NCBI GenBank assembly: GCA_011322625.1
Contig: DRMH01000132.1
Span: forward strand, 1-40,682
DNA length: 40,682 nucleotides
Direction: 5' to 3'
Source: Thermosulfurimonas dismutans
GTDB taxonomy: Bacteria; Desulfobacterota; Thermodesulfobacteria; Thermodesulfobacteriales; Thermodesulfobacteriaceae
Shown: positions 25,547-33,695 of the stretch, piece by piece
Layout of the letters: every line of letters begins with the position of its first letter
Numbering within the stretch: position 1 is the stretch's first letter
Position numbers and translations under genes: made by a program
The notes under the pieces: generated by a model
Told to the model about the DNA's origin: nothing
Seen by the model: the letters and a program-made list of their open reading frames with translations, nothing else
Databases searched by the model: none

Positions 25547-26300
25547 CTAGATCCACCTCCCGCAAGCCCACCGCCGGCCCCTCCACGCATACCTTAAGAT
25601 ACCCTCCGTCCCTTCTTGGCACGGCACAGCCCAGACAGAGCCCCCGCCCGCAGGCCATCACCGCCTCAAGGGAAAGCCAGGTCGGGATTCCCGCCTCCCC
25701 GGCTATCCGCCCCACCGCAGAAAGCATGGCCGGCGGACCGCAGGCCAGGATCATCGCCGGCCTCTCCCGGGTCAGGGCCTCGGAGAGGGCCTCGGTTACC
25801 AGGCCGCGTCTTCCCGCCGAGCCGTCCTCGGTGGTAACGATGAGGGGCGAAAGCCGCGCAAGCCGCGAGATCCGCAGGAGATCCCCGCGGGAACGGGCCC
25901 CGTAAAAGAGCCGGCGAGGGACCCCGCGGGCTTTTAAGGTTTCAAGATAAAAAAGAAAAGGGGCCACCCCGATCCCTCCGGCGATAACCCACACCGGTCC
26001 GGCATCCGGCACGGGAAAGGGTCTTCCGAGGGGTCCATCCACTTTTACTTCGTCTCCCCGGCGAAGGGCCGAAAGGATCCGCGTCCCCCTCCCCCGCACC
26101 TGATAGAGCACGGAAATCCTTGCGCCTTCTACCTCGTGGACGGAAAAGGGGCGGGGGAGGAGGGGATCGTTTCCGGGCCAGGCGCTAAGCCTTACGAACT
26201 GCCCCGGAAGGGCCTTTTCCGCCACCTCCGGGGCCTCAAGCTCAAGAAGGAAATATTCTTCCCCGAGTCTTTTTTGCCGGATGACCTTTGCCGGGATCAC
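25533..26300 (-). CDS. pyrK: Dihydroorotate dehydrogenase electron-transfer subunit
   Basis: LPRPFSVHEVEG...GGIGVAPFLFYLETL...C-terminal MACGRGLCLGCAVPRRDGGYLKVCVEGP [2Fe-2S] motif. Confidence 0.93.
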   Translation of the reverse strand: MIPAKVIRQKRLGEEYFLLELEAPEVAEKALPGQFVRLSAWPGNDPLLPRPFSVHEVEGARISVLYQVRGRGTRILSALRRGDEVKVDGPLGRPFPVPDAGPVWVIAGGIGVAPFLFYLETLKARGVPRRLFYGARSRGDLLRISRLARLSPLIVTTEDGSAGRRGLVTEALSEALTRERPAMILACGPPAMLSAVGRIAGEAGIPTWLSLEAVMACGRGLCLGCAVPRRDGGYLKVCVEGPAVGLREVDLDALT

Positions 26301-26821
26301 CAGCCCATTTTCTCAAGAAAGGCGATAAAGGCCAAGAGGGCCCCAGCAAAGATTGCCCCCACCAGGAGCGGCGGGAGGTGAAGCACCATGGGGAGAGAAA
26401 TCTTCCCGTAAGCCCCGATCCCGTAAAGGGTCTTTTTCCAGAAGGGATAGGTATGGGCGAAGGTGGCGGCTCCCACCAGGCCTCCCAGGACCCCGAAAAT
26501 ACCGTCCAGGGATCCCTCACCTATGGCTCCCGGGGCCGTCCCCGGACAGTATCCCAAGACCGCCCAGCCCAGGCCGTAAATTACTCCCCCCACAAGATTA
26601 GCCGCCATAAAGGTGGGTTTGAGATGATACGGCGCCAGGCCCAGGGTGGTTAAAAGCTGGATCCCGATGGCCCCCACCACCACGCCGGAAAGGAGGAACT
26701 TGAGCACCGTGAGATCCGTTAAGGTGAGGAGCCCGATGTGTTTCTCAAAACGCAGGATCCGGGCCCGCTGGAAGATATAGCCCCAGATTATTCCGGTGAT
26801 AAGCCCGATTAAGAGTTCCAT
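26297..26821 (-). CDS. YeeE/YedE family transporter-like protein (half-size)
   Basis: Hydrophobic; NLVGGVIYGLGWAVLGYCPGTAPGAIGEG motif. Confidence 0.8.
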   Translation of the reverse strand: MELLIGLITGIIWGYIFQRARILRFEKHIGLLTLTDLTVLKFLLSGVVVGAIGIQLLTTLGLAPYHLKPTFMAANLVGGVIYGLGWAVLGYCPGTAPGAIGEGSLDGIFGVLGGLVGAATFAHTYPFWKKTLYGIGAYGKISLPMVLHLPPLLVGAIFAGALLAFIAFLEKMGW

Positions 26822-26824
26822 GGC

Positions 26825-27352
26825 CTACCTCCTTTCCCTGCCGTAAAGTATTAGGGCCAGAGGAATACCACCGGCGAAGAATCCTGTCACCACGAAAAAG
26901 GCGCTTACCGCCAGCTGACTCATACCGGAAAGTCCGTGTCCGCTGGGACATCCCCCGGCCAGTCGCGCCCCGTAAATGATGAGGAAACCACCGATAAAGG
27001 CCCCTATGGCCCGCACCACCGGCGAATTCCCGAAACACCGCGTCCATCTCTCCGGAACCCAGCGCAGACGGAACTCTCCGTTGCGCAGGGCCGCCAGCAG
27101 GGCCCCGAGCGGCACCCCCAGGACCAGCATCACCTTCCAGTCGATACCCGTTCCCTCCTTGCGATAGTATTCGTTCCGGGCTACGGCTTGCGGGGAGACC
27201 GCCTTTTCTATCATTCCGGATACCCGTACATAGGCCGTAGAGGTCCCCAGATAACGGGGATGACCGAAGAGCTGATAGGTCACCAGCACCGAGGCCACCA
27301 GCAATAACCCGGTGAGCGCTCCGCCCAGATAGGGAGACCAGCCGTTGCGCAT
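26825..27352 (-). CDS. YeeE/YedE family transporter-like protein (half-size)
   Basis: Hydrophobic; IGGFLIIYGARLAGGCPSGHGLSGMSQLAVSAFFVVTGFFAGG motif. Confidence 0.85.
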   Translation of the reverse strand: MRNGWSPYLGGALTGLLLVASVLVTYQLFGHPRYLGTSTAYVRVSGMIEKAVSPQAVARNEYYRKEGTGIDWKVMLVLGVPLGALLAALRNGEFRLRWVPERWTRCFGNSPVVRAIGAFIGGFLIIYGARLAGGCPSGHGLSGMSQLAVSAFFVVTGFFAGGIPLALILYGRERR

Positions 27353-27483
27353 ACCCCTACCTCCTTGCACCTTATTTTGGACCTCTTCCTCCCACCCCTT
27401 TCCAGGGTGGTTTGTGTCACGATCTCCATTTTTCTAGCTCAACCTGTTTCTTTCAAGTCAAACCATAAGCCTTTTAGGGCCTC

Positions 27484-27542: not shown

Positions 27543-27989
27543 ATGGCCTTTCCCGAGGATCGGCTTTATTCCGAGGAGCATCTCTGGGTGAAAAAGGAGC
27601 GGGGCGCCAAGGCTCTGCTCGGTCTTTCCGAATTCGCCTGTCGGCGTTACGGAGAGGTGGTGGACCTGGAGCTACCCGAAGAGGGTGAGGAGATCGAGAA
27701 GGGTGAGGTCTTCGGCAGTGTGGAGACCTCCCGGGGGGTGGAGGAACTGGTAGCCCCGGTCTCCGGGGAGGTGACCGCCGTAAACGAGGAGGTGCTGGGG
27801 GATCCGGCTCTGGTGGAGGAGGACCCCTACGGTGACGGCTGGCTTCTCCGGGTTAAACTCCTGGATCCGGACGAGCTGGAGGAGCTCATGAGCGCCGATG
27901 AGTACGAGGATTATCTGGAAGAAGAGGCCGAAGAGGAGCTTTTCGAGGAGGAAGAGGGCCTTGAATTCGAGGAAGAGGAGGAGGAATAG
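27543..27989 (+). CDS. GcvH-like protein with Arg at the lipoyl-lysine position and poly-Glu C-terminal tail
   Basis: GcvH fold sequence FPEDRLYSEEHLWVK...LGLSEFACRRYGEVVDLELPEEGEEIEKGEVFGSVETSRGVEELVAPVSGEVTAVNEEVLGDPALVEEDPYGDGWLLRVK. Confidence 0.9.
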   Translation: MAFPEDRLYSEEHLWVKKERGAKALLGLSEFACRRYGEVVDLELPEEGEEIEKGEVFGSVETSRGVEELVAPVSGEVTAVNEEVLGDPALVEEDPYGDGWLLRVKLLDPDELEELMSADEYEDYLEEEAEEELFEEEEGLEFEEEEEE

Positions 27990-28922
27990 GTGATCGCGGT
28001 GGTCTTTCCCGGGCAGGGCTCGCAGTACGTGGGGATGGGGAAGGCCCTCTATGAGGCCTTTCCCGAGGCCCGGGAGGTGTTTGGGCTTGCCGAAGACCTT
28101 ACCGGCCTCCCCCTGCGCCGGCTCTGTTTTGAAGGCCCCGAGGAGGAACTCTCCGAGACCTCGCGGCTCCAGCCGGCCCTTACCGCGGTGAACCTTTCCG
28201 TATGGCGGGTGCTTTCCGCCCGGGGCCTTCGGCCGGCCTTTTTCGCCGGACACAGTCTGGGGGAGTTCAGCGCCCTCTGTGCGGCAGGCGTTCTGTCTCT
28301 TGAGGATACCTTCCGGCTTACGAAACTCCGCGGGGAACTTATGTCCCGGGCCGGGGAGGAGGCCCCGGGGGCCATGTATGCGGTGATCGGTCTTTCCCGC
28401 GAGAGCTTGACCGAAATCCTTTCCCGGGTTTCGGGCCGGGTGTATCTGGCCAACCACAATTCTCCGGAGCAGAGCGTGATCAGCGGCGAGGAGGCGGCCG
28501 CGGCAAGAGCCGCGGAGGAGGCCAAAGCCCTCGGGGCCAAACGGGTGGTAAGGCTTTCTGTCTCCGGGGCCTTTCACTCTCCGCTCATGGAAAAAGCCGC
28601 CCGAAGGTTTGCCGAGGCCTTAAGAGAAACCCCCTTTTCCCCGGCAAAGATTCCCGTGGTGCTCAATGTCACCGCCACCCCGGAAACCGATCCGGAAGCC
28701 ATCCGCGAGGCCCTTTCCCGCCAGATGCTCTCTCCGGTGCGTTGGGTGGAAAGTGTCGAGGCCATATATGCGGCAGGGGCCCGCACCTTTATTGAAGCAG
28801 GGCCCAAACGGGTCCTTTCCGGGCTCATAAAACGCATCCTTTCCGGGAAGGAGATGCGTGTCTTTCAGGCTGAAACCCCGGAGCAGATCGAAGCCCTTTT
28901 CCGGGAGATGGGAGAGGCTTAG
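27990..28922 (+). CDS. fabD: Malonyl-CoA:ACP transacylase (GTG start)
   Basis: VVFPGQGSQYVGMG...FFAGHSLGEFSALCAAG...GAFHSPLMEKA. Confidence 0.96.
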   Translation: MIAVVFPGQGSQYVGMGKALYEAFPEAREVFGLAEDLTGLPLRRLCFEGPEEELSETSRLQPALTAVNLSVWRVLSARGLRPAFFAGHSLGEFSALCAAGVLSLEDTFRLTKLRGELMSRAGEEAPGAMYAVIGLSRESLTEILSRVSGRVYLANHNSPEQSVISGEEAAAARAAEEAKALGAKRVVRLSVSGAFHSPLMEKAARRFAEALRETPFSPAKIPVVLNVTATPETDPEAIREALSRQMLSPVRWVESVEAIYAAGARTFIEAGPKRVLSGLIKRILSGKEMRVFQAETPEQIEALFREMGEA

Positions 28923-29132
28923 ATGGCGCGTTTTCGGGTCCGGGTCTCCTTTCCCGAAAGATGCAAGGGCTGCGGGCTCTGCGTGCACTTCTGCCCCCGG
29001 AAGATCCTTTCCGTGGGGGTTCGCCGAAATCGGCAGGGCTACCGGGTGGTGGAGGTTACGGAGTCCGAGAAGTGCACCGGCTGCGGGGTGTGCTATCTTA
29101 TGTGTCCGGATGTGGTCCTGGAGGTGGTGTAG
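28923..29132 (+). CDS. 2-oxoacid:ferredoxin oxidoreductase delta (ferredoxin) subunit
   Basis: Two 4Fe-4S motifs CKGCGLCVHFCP and CTGCGVCYLMCP; followed by alpha, beta, gamma subunits. Confidence 0.92.
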   Translation: MARFRVRVSFPERCKGCGLCVHFCPRKILSVGVRRNRQGYRVVEVTESEKCTGCGVCYLMCPDVVLEVV

Positions 29133-30182
29133 GTGAAACCCGTTCTGGTCAAGGGCTCGGAGGCCATTGCCCTGGGAGCGCTTGAGGCGGGCTGCCGGTG
29201 TTACTTCGGATATCCCATCACCCCGCAGAACGAGATCCCGGAACTCATGGCCCGGGAGCTTCCCAAACGGGGCGGGGTCTTTCTTCAGGCCGAAAGCGAG
29301 CTTGCCGCGGTGAACATGCTGCTTGGGGCGGTCTCCACCGGGGTGCGGGCCATGACCTCCTCCTCAAGCCCGGGCATCTCCCTTATGGCCGAGACCTTCT
29401 CCTATCTTGCGGCCCTTGAGCTCCCGGCGGTGATCGTAAACGTCTCCCGCGGAGGCCCGGGGCTCGGCGGGATAGAGGCCTCCCAGGGGGACTACTTCCA
29501 GGCCACCCGCGGGGCCGGACACGGCGACTATCACTTCCTGGTCCTCTCTCCGGCAAGCATCCAGGAGGCCTACGAACTTACGGCCAAGGCCTTTGAGCTT
29601 TCCGAAAAGTATCGGCAGCCAGCCTTGATTCTCACCGACGCCCTCCTCGGCCAGATGAAGGAACCCCTCATCCCCCGCAGACTCCGGGTGCGGGAATATC
29701 CCAAGGACTGGGCGCTTGACGGGGCGCGGGGGCGGCCGGCCCGGGTCCTAAAAAGCCTCTTTCTCGGGCCCGGGGAGCTTCGGGCCCGAAACGAGCTTCT
29801 TAAGAAGAAATACCGGGCCATGCGGCGCGAGGCCCGGGCCGAGGTCCTTTACGCCGAGGGGGCCGAGCTTGCGGTCTGCGCCTTCGGGTCCCTTTCCCGC
29901 ATCGTGAAGGAGGCCGTGGAGATGGCCCGCAAGAAGGGCTATCCCGTGGCCTTCGTGCGGCCCGTAACCCTCTTTCCCTTTCCGGAAAAACCCTTCCGCG
30001 AACTCGCCTTACGGGGGGTGAGGTTCCTGGTGGTGGAGCTTAACTGCGGACAGATGGTGGAGGATGTGAGGCTTTCGGTGTGCGGAAGAACGGAGGTGGA
30101 AAGCCTCGCCCTTCCCCCGAGTGATCTCCCCGCCCCGGAAGATATCTACCGGAGGATCAGGCGGTGTCTCCGAAGAAGATAA
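29133..30182 (+). CDS. 2-oxoacid:ferredoxin oxidoreductase alpha subunit (VorB/KorA type)
   Basis: GSEAIALGALEAGCRCYFGYPITPQNEIPE...TSSSSPGISLMAETFSYLAALELPAVIVNVSRGGPGLGGIEASQGDYFQA. Confidence 0.93.
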   Translation: MKPVLVKGSEAIALGALEAGCRCYFGYPITPQNEIPELMARELPKRGGVFLQAESELAAVNMLLGAVSTGVRAMTSSSSPGISLMAETFSYLAALELPAVIVNVSRGGPGLGGIEASQGDYFQATRGAGHGDYHFLVLSPASIQEAYELTAKAFELSEKYRQPALILTDALLGQMKEPLIPRRLRVREYPKDWALDGARGRPARVLKSLFLGPGELRARNELLKKKYRAMRREARAEVLYAEGAELAVCAFGSLSRIVKEAVEMARKKGYPVAFVRPVTLFPFPEKPFRELALRGVRFLVVELNCGQMVEDVRLSVCGRTEVESLALPPSDLPAPEDIYRRIRRCLRRR

Positions 30183-30913
30183 AACCTCCCCTTACCTTTC
30201 CCCGTTCCCTTACCGAGCGTCCCTTTCACTACTGTCCGGGGTGCCACCACGGCATCGCCCATCGGCTCCTTGCCGAGGTGATAGATGAACTCGGTATCCG
30301 GGAGCGGGCCTACGGGGTGGCCTCCATCGGTTGCGCCTGTTTCCTTTACTATTACTACGACGTGGATATCTGCGAGGCCCCGCACGGAAGGGCCTGCGCC
30401 GCGGCCACCGGGGCCAAACGGGCCCGGCCGGAGCTTGCGGTCTTCACCTATCAGGGTGACGGGGACTTTGCGGCCATCGGCCTTACGGAAAGCCTTCACG
30501 CCGCGGCCCGGGGCGAACGCATCACCGCCATCATGATCAACAACACCGTCTATGGTATGACCGGGGGGCAGCTCTCCCCCACCACCCTCCCCGGTCAGCG
30601 CACCACCACCACGCCCGAGGGGCGCGATCCCCGGGTTTACGGCTATCCCCTCAAGGTGGCCGAGATCCTGGCCCAGTTTCCCGGGGTGGCCTTCTGCGCC
30701 CGGGTGGCGGTGAACACTCCCAAGAGGGTACTTGAGGCCCGGGAGGCCCTGCGCAGGGCCTTTCTCGCCCAGCTTGAGGACCGGGGTTTCGGTTATGTGG
30801 AGTTTCTTTCCGCCTGTCCGGTGAACTGGAAGCTTGATCCGGTTTCCGCGGCCCGCAAGGTGGACGAACTCACCGAGACCTTCCCCCTGGGGGTCTTCCG
30901 GGACCTTACATGA
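30164..30913 (+). CDS. 2-oxoacid:ferredoxin oxidoreductase beta subunit (TPP-binding)
   Basis: YCPGCHHGIAHRLLAEVIDEL...HGRACAAATGAKRA...TYQGDGDFAAIGLTE...NNTVYGMTGGQLSPTT. Confidence 0.95.
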   Translation: MSPKKIKPPLTFPRSLTERPFHYCPGCHHGIAHRLLAEVIDELGIRERAYGVASIGCACFLYYYYDVDICEAPHGRACAAATGAKRARPELAVFTYQGDGDFAAIGLTESLHAAARGERITAIMINNTVYGMTGGQLSPTTLPGQRTTTTPEGRDPRVYGYPLKVAEILAQFPGVAFCARVAVNTPKRVLEAREALRRAFLAQLEDRGFGYVEFLSACPVNWKLDPVSAARKVDELTETFPLGVFRDLT

Positions 30914-31024
30914 GGGATCTTTCGGAAAAGCGGGGCCGAAGTATGTTAGCATGGAGGAGAAGGGAGCCGGAGGAGATACTTCCCGTGGCCGGAAGGGAAG
31001 ATACCGCAGAGGGAGAGACGGCCC

Positions 31025-31594
31025 GTGAAGTTTGAGGTCATTCTCGCCGGATTCGGCGGGCAGGGGATCCTTTTTGCCGGAAACCTCCTGGCCCAGGCCG
31101 GAATGGAGGCCGGGCTGCGGGTGACCTTCCTTCCGGTCTATGGGCCGGAGATGCGCGGGGGGACCTGCAACTGCACGGTGGTGCTCTCCGACCGGGAGAT
31201 CGCCTCCCCGGTGGTCACCCGCCCCAAAGCCCTGGTCATCATGAACCTTCCCTCTTTCGAGAAATTCGTTCCCCGGCTAAAGCCCCGGGGGCTTGCGGTG
31301 GTGAACGAGAACCTGGTTCCCAGGGAGCGCGCGGCAGGGTTCCCCGGACGCCGCTTCCTCTTCCTTCCGGCCGATGATCTGGCCGAGGAGGAAGGGGCGC
31401 CGGGGCTAGCCAACATGGCCGCCCTCGGGGCCCTGGTGGCCGCAACCCGGGTGGTTCCCCCGGAGAAGGTCCTTTCCGGGCTGGAAAGCCTCCTTCCGGA
31501 ACACCGCCGCCACCTCCTTGAGGCAAACCGCAGGGTCTTCAAACGGGGTTACGAGTTTGCCTTAAGGAATTCCGCCACGGCCTCGGAAAGATAG
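31025..31594 (+). CDS. 2-oxoacid:ferredoxin oxidoreductase gamma subunit (GTG start)
   Basis: VILAGFGGQGILFAGNLLAQAGMEAGLRVTFLPVYGPEMRGGTCNCTVVLSDREIASPVV. Confidence 0.95.
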   Translation: MKFEVILAGFGGQGILFAGNLLAQAGMEAGLRVTFLPVYGPEMRGGTCNCTVVLSDREIASPVVTRPKALVIMNLPSFEKFVPRLKPRGLAVVNENLVPRERAAGFPGRRFLFLPADDLAEEEGAPGLANMAALGALVAATRVVPPEKVLSGLESLLPEHRRHLLEANRRVFKRGYEFALRNSATASER

Positions 31595-32364
31595 CCCCGG
31601 AACCGCTCCTCTCCCCCGATAAGTCTCATCCCGAAGACGAAGTTTATCTCGTTTAAAAAGACCTCTCCGGTCTCGGGCCGGAAGAGAAGATCCACGGCCA
31701 TAAGGTTTAGCCCCGAGGCCTCACAGAGCCTCTCCACCACGGAAAGGGCCCGGGCCTCAAGATCCGGGTCCGGACACTCAACCGCTTCTCCCTCCTGGAC
31801 CAGGTTCTTCCGGAACCCTCCCCTGCGCCAGAAGCAAAGGCGCCTCTTCCCGATCACCACCACCCGCAGGTCGTAGTCCCAGGGGAGATATTCCTGGATG
31901 AGGAACCCGAAGCGCCCCGAGGCCTCCCAGTCCCTAAGACGCGAAAGGGCCTCCTCCCAGTCCGAGGCCTCCCTTACCAGGAAGATCTCGCGGCCCTCAT
32001 GACCGTGGTTTCCCTTGACCACGAAGGGGGGCTCGGGGAGGCGAATCTCCGCGGCCCCGGGATGCGGCCCGAAGGCGCAGATCCGCGGCACACAAAGGGT
32101 CTCGGGATAGGGAAGCGAAAGGGCCCGAAAGAGGAGGATCTGTCCGATCTTTCCCGGAAAGGAAAACCGCAGATCGTAGTTGGGAAACACGCGTTTTCCG
32201 AGCCTCCGGACGAAAAAGTAAAACTCCGGAGACACGGTCTGGGGAAGGATCACCGCCTCCGCCGCTTCTAAGGCTGAAAGGACCTCCGGGGTAAGCCCGG
32301 TGAACTGAAAGAAGTTGATATCTCCCTCCACCCAGGGGTTGAAAGAGACCGTCTTTGTGCCCAT
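31549..32364 (-). CDS. ATP-grasp (RimK-like) ligase family protein
   Basis: PFVVKGNHGHEGREIFLV...FLIQEYLPWDYDLRVVVIGKRRLCFWRRGGFRKNLVQEGEAVE...LNLMAVDLLFRPETGEVFLNEINFVFG. Confidence 0.8.
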   Translation of the reverse strand: MGTKTVSFNPWVEGDINFFQFTGLTPEVLSALEAAEAVILPQTVSPEFYFFVRRLGKRVFPNYDLRFSFPGKIGQILLFRALSLPYPETLCVPRICAFGPHPGAAEIRLPEPPFVVKGNHGHEGREIFLVREASDWEEALSRLRDWEASGRFGFLIQEYLPWDYDLRVVVIGKRRLCFWRRGGFRKNLVQEGEAVECPDPDLEARALSVVERLCEASGLNLMAVDLLFRPETGEVFLNEINFVFGMRLIGGEERFRGYLSEAVAEFLKANS

Positions 32365-32399
32365 GTCTTTTAGTGTACCCCGAAAAAGGAGGTTTTCCC

Positions 32400-33695
32400 G
32401 TGCAGGCGGTGATCCTTGCTGCGGGGAAAGGCACGCGCATGGGTCTTCACCGCACGGGCTATCCCAAGGGTCTTCTCCGGGTGGCCGGACGCGAACTCCT
32501 TCTGCGCCACCTGATCCTCCTTTCTCAGGCCGGGGTTGAGGAGTTCGTCTTAGTGGTGAATCCGGAAAACCGGAAATATTTTGAGGAGTTTCTCCGGGCT
32601 CACCCGGAGTTTCGGGTGCGGATGGTAGAGAATCCCCATCCCGAGAGGGGAAACGGCTACTCCCTGTGGTGTGCGCGGGAGGCGGTCTCCGGGCCCTTCG
32701 TTCTCACCATGTCCGACCATCTCTACGAGGAGGACTTCGTGCGAAAGGCGGTCTCGGGTCAGGGCCTCATCTTTGACCGCCGGGGCCTTTACGTGGATCA
32801 CGGGGAGGCCACCCGGGTTAAGCTGCGGGAGGGACGGATCGCGGCCTTGGGAAAGGGCCTTACGGAATATGACGGTTTTGACACCGGATTTTTTGTGCTC
32901 ACCCCGGAGATATTTGCTGTGGCCGAGCGCCTGATAGGGGAAAAGGAGGAGGTGAGCCTTTCGGAGATCGCCGCCGCGGCCCGAATCCCGGCCACCGAAC
33001 TTTCCGGCCTCTTCTGGACCGACATAGACACCCCGGAGGAACTCCGCCGGGCCGAACGCCTTCTCATCCGGGCAAGCGTTAAGGGAGCAGGAGACGGCTT
33101 CATCTCCCGGCACTTAAACCGCAGGCTCTCCACCGCCCTGAGTCCCTACCTCTGCGGCCGCATCACCCCCAACCAGGCCACGATCCTCTCCTTCCTCCTG
33201 GGGATCCTTTCTGCGGTGCTGGCCTTCTTTAACCCTCTTCTCGGGGGGATCCTCTACCAGGTCCACTCCGTCCTTGACGGGGTGGACGGAGAGATCGCCC
33301 GGGCCACCCTAAGCCGCACCCGCTTCGGGGGGCTTCTTGACTCGGTCCTTGACCGCTATGTGGATTTTGCCTTCCTTTCCGTTCTGGTGCTTACGCTAAA
33401 GCCCCGAGGCCTCATGCTTGCTCTCGCCCTTCTCGCCCTTCTCGGTACGGTGATGGTGAGCTATGTCACCGAGCGCTTCAAGGGGGCCTACGCACGCGAC
33501 GCCTACCGCACCTTTCCCGTGCTTCACGCCTTCCCCGGAAAACGCGACGAACGGATCTTCCTCGTCTTCCTCTTCTGCGTCCTCGGATATCCGGAATGGC
33601 TCTTCCCGCTTCTGGCGGTTCTCACCCACGGAAAGGTCCTCTTTACCCTTTTCGTCTTTTACCGGGGAAGAAAGAAGCTAAAAGCGCAGGGCTAG
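32400..33695 (+). CDS. Bifunctional CTP:inositol-1-phosphate cytidylyltransferase / DIPP synthase-like fusion (NTP transferase + CDP-alcohol phosphotransferase; GTG start)
   Basis: N-term QAVILAAGKGTRMG...YPKGLLRVAG; C-term CDP-alcohol motif DGVDGEIARATLSRTRFGGLLDSVLD with multiple TM; GTG at 32400 after aaaaaggagg. Confidence 0.8.
   Translation: MQAVILAAGKGTRMGLHRTGYPKGLLRVAGRELLLRHLILLSQAGVEEFVLVVNPENRKYFEEFLRAHPEFRVRMVENPHPERGNGYSLWCAREAVSGPFVLTMSDHLYEEDFVRKAVSGQGLIFDRRGLYVDHGEATRVKLREGRIAALGKGLTEYDGFDTGFFVLTPEIFAVAERLIGEKEEVSLSEIAAAARIPATELSGLFWTDIDTPEELRRAERLLIRASVKGAGDGFISRHLNRRLSTALSPYLCGRITPNQATILSFLLGILSAVLAFFNPLLGGILYQVHSVLDGVDGEIARATLSRTRFGGLLDSVLDRYVDFAFLSVLVLTLKPRGLMLALALLALLGTVMVSYVTERFKGAYARDAYRTFPVLHAFPGKRDERIFLVFLFCVLGYPEWLFPLLAVLTHGKVLFTLFVFYRGRKKLKAQG

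Follow-up and report, generated by a model that had tools for sequence, protein, structure and literature searches.

Throughout its order of thermophilic sulfur bacteria, a GcvH-like protein is kept in which the lipoyl-bearing lysine is gone; the evidence is good both that lipoylation was lost and that the protein was retained. We label the lipoyl-less protein of the window (the whole stretch of 40,682 nucleotides analysed here) and its lysine-less counterparts in the order GcvH*. It is probably a cofactor-free paralog of the H-protein that serves in some process other than glycine cleavage, most likely as a non-covalent partner or regulator of FabD. The cofactor-free and glycine-cleavage-independent part of this reading is highly probable; the step to FabD, which we infer from gene linkage, is tentative. 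It seems that an ancient carrier has taken on a different task. Neither a GcvH without the lysine nor a pairing of gcvH with fabD turned up in the open-access literature that we searched. The gene and its relevant positions in the window are:

27543..27989, + strand: GcvH*, lipoyl-less GcvH-like protein of 148 residues, one open frame with ATG start, fold from AlphaFold2 and Foldseek
27582..27584, + strand: codon 14, Leu replacing the cavity residue Glu14, Leu in 40/40 order genomes
27732..27734, + strand: codon 64 (cgg, Arg) at the lipoyl lysine position by gapless alignment, in the turn between predicted strands 56-62 and 65-70
27909..27986, + strand: codons 123-148, C-terminal region with disordered acidic tail, pLDDT <50 from residue 134

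By profile and by fold, the window protein is a GcvH. Pfam GCV_H matches its residues 8-127 with 123.7 bits (cut-off 22.2, E 5e-36), and it scores above the curated cut-offs of the NCBIfam gcvH models. No second full-length GcvH is encoded in the host genome. AlphaFold2 predicts the H-protein fold confidently (mean pLDDT 85.7), with residue 64 in a turn flanked by strands 56-62 and 65-70, and the carrier hairpin is predicted to be intact. The top solved structure in Foldseek is the H-protein of Thermus (1onl, TM 0.94, rmsd 1.0). GcvH* also shares with GcvH the length of the core and the scaffold residues H13, W15, G27, P72, G75, N81, W100 and Y121, all of which are kept in the order. It differs from GcvH in lacking the lipoyl lysine, in the exchange of Glu14 for Leu, in the loss of Ser67 and Tyr70, in its acidic C-terminal tail, of which residues 134-148 are disordered in the AlphaFold2 model, and in its genomic setting, which is linked to fabD and in which no GcvP or lipoylation enzymes were found. 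GcvH* is strongly acidic (computed pI 4.05-4.23).

When GSVETSRGVEELVAPVSGEV is aligned with the segment GSVESVKAxSDxYAPVSGEV of 53 GcvH proteins, sampled inside and outside the phylum and uniformly Lys-bearing, no gaps are needed and Arg64 (cgg) falls at the position of the Lys; the turn contains no Lys elsewhere. Both points had been made in the earlier note from the window alone and are confirmed by the alignment. The loss exceeds the lysine. The numbering of GcvH* coincides with that of the E. coli H-protein, in which the aminomethyl group is bound by Glu12 and Glu14, with Ser67, Asp68 and Tyr70 along the exit of the aminomethyl-lipoate cavity (PMC7733448); of these cavity positions, 14, 67 and 70 are occupied in the window protein by Leu, Glu and Val. 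Across the order, Ser67 is replaced by F, E, Y or V and Tyr70 most commonly by V, I or L. Judged from the residues, the pattern in the order is one of a retained scaffold and a lost active site. Residue 64 itself is Glu in 21 order genomes, Arg in 10, Gln in 7, His in one and Asp in one; Lys, which the earlier note had named as the refuting state in orthologs, occurs in 0 of these 40, which include complete single-contig genomes. Across all non-Lys copies E, Q, R, H, D, S, N, L, G and F are seen at this site. Since the residue varies freely, a special role for Arg64 is rejected.

Exactly one full-length GcvH* is present in 40 of the 41 order genomes. The single genome without it (G199) is 76% complete and lacks fabD as well, a double absence that is expected if the two genes share a missing contig. 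The nearest named relatives of the window protein come from Thermosulfurimonas and Thermodesulfobacteriaceae, and in a first tree the GcvH* proteins of the order form one group (SH-aLRT 97). In profile searches, none of the 41 genomes had a match over the cut-off to LipA, to the catalytic family of LplA/LipB or to GcvP (glycine decarboxylase P-protein, PF02347), and none had a lipoyl-dependent 2-oxoacid dehydrogenase E2, with most of 14 control genomes positive in each of these searches; the lipoylation search comprised LipA and LplA/LipB profiles, with the alternative synthases LipS1/LipS2 outside its direct range. The missing lysine and the absence of GcvP and lipoylation genes (0/41) support the earlier proposal that the protein is not a lipoyl carrier of glycine cleavage. 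A 2026 survey reported no species of its clade B with the gene set of the reductive glycine pathway (PMC12827605), and we infer from the listing of Thermosulfuriphilus there that this clade covers the present order.

Purifying selection on the GcvH* gene is strong. Among its relatives, 11 pairs could be measured; the dN/dS of GcvH* in these ranges from 0 to 0.065 and is below that of FabD in 11 of 11, a result that includes several pairs with saturated dS and is the same in the five with GcvH* dS <1. Two pairs have identical GcvH* proteins despite 15-16 synonymous changes. The view of the protein as a retained derivative and not a casual mutant, also taken in the earlier note, is borne out by the 40 of 40 non-Lys genomes.

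The order is not the only place where such proteins occur. A profile of the order GcvH* has as next best matches proteins of family f19, with Glu at the site and fabD, ferredoxin and OFOR genes behind them; the other families with adjacent fabD have Asp (f49) or Ser (f62). Non-Lys copies without adjacent fabD were found in f6, f8, f11, f13, f28, f45, f52 and f54, with lgt, sir2/tol, resB-ccsA or efp as neighbours where these were readable. Among the 70 rows of the clade tree, Glu14 is absent in 32 of 32 non-Lys proteins and present in 31 of 38 Lys-bearing ones, and most non-Lys proteins have the acidic C-terminal tail, with L168 and L177 lacking a clear one. This tree, computed without columns 14, 64 and the tail from a short alignment that leaves its details unsure, gathers 31 of the 32 non-Lys rows in one clade, inside which lie the Lys-bearing L172 and L173. 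A single clade of the non-Lys rows together with L172 and L173 was not rejected (p-AU 0.67), and one of the non-Lys rows alone was borderline (p-AU 0.058). L172 and L173 have kept Lys and lost Glu14, and L173 has an acidic tail; they may be intermediates still open to lipoylation. From sequence comparison, the non-Lys copies probably constitute one phylum-wide paralogous group, marked by the loss of Glu14 and usually by the acidic tail, within a sampling that covers one phylum, as the search centred on L056, meant for Myxococcota, sampled the same phylum again.

GcvP is present in 7 of 18 genomes tested from this wider set, and five of the seven (G056, G092, G142, G047, G026) also carry a non-Lys protein. 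In four of these (G056, G092, G047, G026), another GcvH match adjoins gcvP; the one in G056 (L002), whose sequence was read, has the Lys. The non-Lys protein is therefore the product of a separate gene that coexists with a normal glycine cleavage system, and this coexistence, together with retention where the GcvP system is absent, argues against simple decay.

Within the order, GcvH* is followed by fabD. The downstream genes in the window are:

27990..28922, + strand: fabD, malonyl-CoA:ACP transacylase, the genome's only fabD, GTG start abutting the GcvH* stop, with GQGSQ, GHSLGE and AFHSPL motifs
28923..29132, + strand: small ferredoxin-like protein of 69 residues, behind fabD in f1 and f19 only
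29133..31594, + strand: 2-oxoacid:ferredoxin oxidoreductase (OFOR)-like subunits, alpha 29133-30182, beta 30164-30913, gamma 31025-31594

The stop codon TAG of GcvH* is followed at once by the GTG of fabD. In 40 of 40 order genomes with GcvH*, the sole fabD of the genome lies directly downstream (in G230 it is cut by the contig end) and starts at -4 to +8 nt from the stop codon; the adjacency recurs in families f19, f49 and f62. The ferredoxin and OFOR genes stand behind fabD only in f1 within the order and in f19 outside it, and are absent there in f2 and f78, where the GcvH*-fabD pair is still found. FabD and not OFOR is therefore the constant neighbour. Of the tie to the fabD/OFOR genes suggested in the earlier note, the part concerning fabD holds across the 40 order genomes and the three further families, and the part concerning OFOR fails in f2 and f78, for which OFOR as a constant partner is rejected. 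Upstream of GcvH* the genes vary (yeeE/pyrK in its own genus, moaA in f2 and f78, ileS-lspA-lgt among the variants), so the GcvH*-fabD linkage outlasts rearrangement. In the window, two adjacent YeeE/YedE-like half proteins of 174 and 181 residues appear to be encoded divergently from GcvH* at 26297-27370 on the minus strand, and such halves adjoin GcvH* in its own genus and close relatives.

Several other explanations of these observations have to be weighed. That the window merely records a sequencing error, an isolated mutation or the decaying remnant of a glycine cleavage system since lost is hardly credible: the order has indeed lost glycine cleavage, and clade B has no reductive glycine gene set (PMC12827605), but the agreement of 40 out of 40 genomes refutes error and isolated mutation, and a dN/dS of at most 0.065 as well as the persistence of the paralog beside a second, gcvP-adjacent GcvH in GcvP-positive genomes speak against a relic. 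A carrier with a different covalent group, on residue 64 or elsewhere in the same turn, would be compatible with the predicted intact hairpin and with the conservation of Ser/Thr59 in the order. We consider it very unlikely in view of the chemically unlike residues among which position 64 is free to vary, the lack of conservation of Ser59 in the wider non-Lys group and the lack of any LplA/LipB-type attachment enzyme over the cut-off in the order.

The close junction with fabD raises the question of whether the frame is kept mainly as a translational leader that supplies the ribosome-binding site of fabD or couples its translation, with a protein that does little. Stop and start nearly touch throughout the order, and the last Glu codons of the tail, gaggaggaggaa, are purine-rich and resemble a Shine-Dalgarno ribosome-binding site for fabD; yet the amino-acid sequence of GcvH* is more constrained than that of FabD, its predicted fold is intact and the acidic-tailed paralog is retained also without an adjacent fabD, which makes a leader quite improbable and rules out the tail as a mere ribosome-binding site of fabD. 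A partnership with the downstream OFOR, for example in supplying acyl-CoA primers to fatty-acid synthesis, is unlikely as well. It could account for the ferredoxin and OFOR genes behind GcvH*-fabD in f1 and f19 and for order genomes without a lipoyl 2-oxoacid dehydrogenase E2, but not for the f2 and f78 loci, in which OFOR is missing and GcvH*-fabD stays.

The reading we favour is a cofactor-free paralog that is, more tentatively, a partner of FabD. Since neither a site for attachment nor the enzymes for it were found, it would act through non-covalent protein-protein contact. Throughout the order FabD is its invariable neighbour, and the expression of the two is tightly linked at the DNA level; the most economical proposal is therefore that GcvH* would be made together with FabD and serve as an accessory or regulatory partner at the malonyl-CoA:ACP step of fatty-acid synthesis. 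GcvH* is acidic like acyl carrier proteins and might compete with them for their docking surface or support it: the place where the acidic acyl carrier protein binds could be taken up by the acidic core and tail of GcvH*. An AlphaFold2 model of a single read-through chain that joins GcvH* to FabD, from an alignment of 14 rows only, gave no confident interface; its pTM of 0.67 is about FabD's fraction of the chain, and about the value expected for FabD alone. Conserved adjacency is by itself no proof of contact. Since other families have the non-Lys paralog without a fabD neighbour, FabD cannot be the only partner everywhere, and the group may represent a general adaptor with lineage-specific partners. 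It is conceivable, if doubtful, that in this order a carrier of one-carbon metabolism has come to serve malonyl-CoA:ACP transacylase alone, as a cofactor-free subunit or regulator, and that its lysine-less relatives across the phylum work with other partners. If true, type II fatty-acid synthesis would have a previously undescribed point of control.

Comparison with known GcvH-like families, as suggested in the earlier note, yielded no assignment. LbpA of Hdr-like sulfur oxidation is likewise a GcvH-like protein that acts outside glycine cleavage in sulfur-metabolising prokaryotes; it has a strictly conserved lysine and, some archaeal LbpA excepted, usually two conserved cysteines (PMC6067878). 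Both features are missing from GcvH*, whose only Cys in the window protein (C33) is not conserved across the order. LbpA is encoded with hdr-like genes, whereas GcvH* has yeeE-type genes, fabD, ferredoxin and OFOR as neighbours. Two curated NCBIfam models describe GcvH-like proteins separate from GcvH, namely NF045810 (GcvH_rel_desulf) and TIGR03077 (not_gcvH). The window protein scores below the cut-offs of both (61 vs 150 bits and 57 vs 144 bits), and other non-Lys members fail them too. Scores and residues thus rule out membership in NF045810, TIGR03077 or LbpA. GcvH-L of Streptococcus (PDB 5a35) resembles GcvH* in having a GcvH-like fold and a role outside glycine cleavage, with a weak match of 16% identity. 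GcvH-L is a modified carrier encoded with a SirTM/macrodomain operon, and no such operon is seen beside the GcvH* gene of the window. At two of the wider-set loci (L165 and L167, f11), directly downstream of the non-Lys GcvH-like gene lie a Sir2-type deacetylase gene and tolQRAB-like genes; the sirtuin neighbour recalls SirTM systems, yet looks like an ordinary Sir2.

Annotation pipelines name the non-Lys proteins GcvH, at scores above curated cut-offs, and where glycine cleavage or a reductive glycine pathway is claimed from genomes of this phylum, the H-proteins counted may therefore include some that are unable to carry lipoate. A recent survey left the origin of scattered H-proteins unresolved (PMC12827605), to which an overlooked non-lipoyl paralog may have contributed. 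GcvH* offers a clear case of a swinging-arm carrier that has outlived its arm, in cells where lipoylation is not detected, and the sole fabD of each order genome with GcvH*, to which it is invariably linked, provides one concrete lead to a partner.

Further downstream in the window, 32355-33695 on the plus strand apparently encodes a sugar-phosphate cytidylyltransferase-like domain fused to a CDP-alcohol phosphotransferase-like one, a putative combination suggestive of di-myo-inositol phosphate synthesis in thermophiles.
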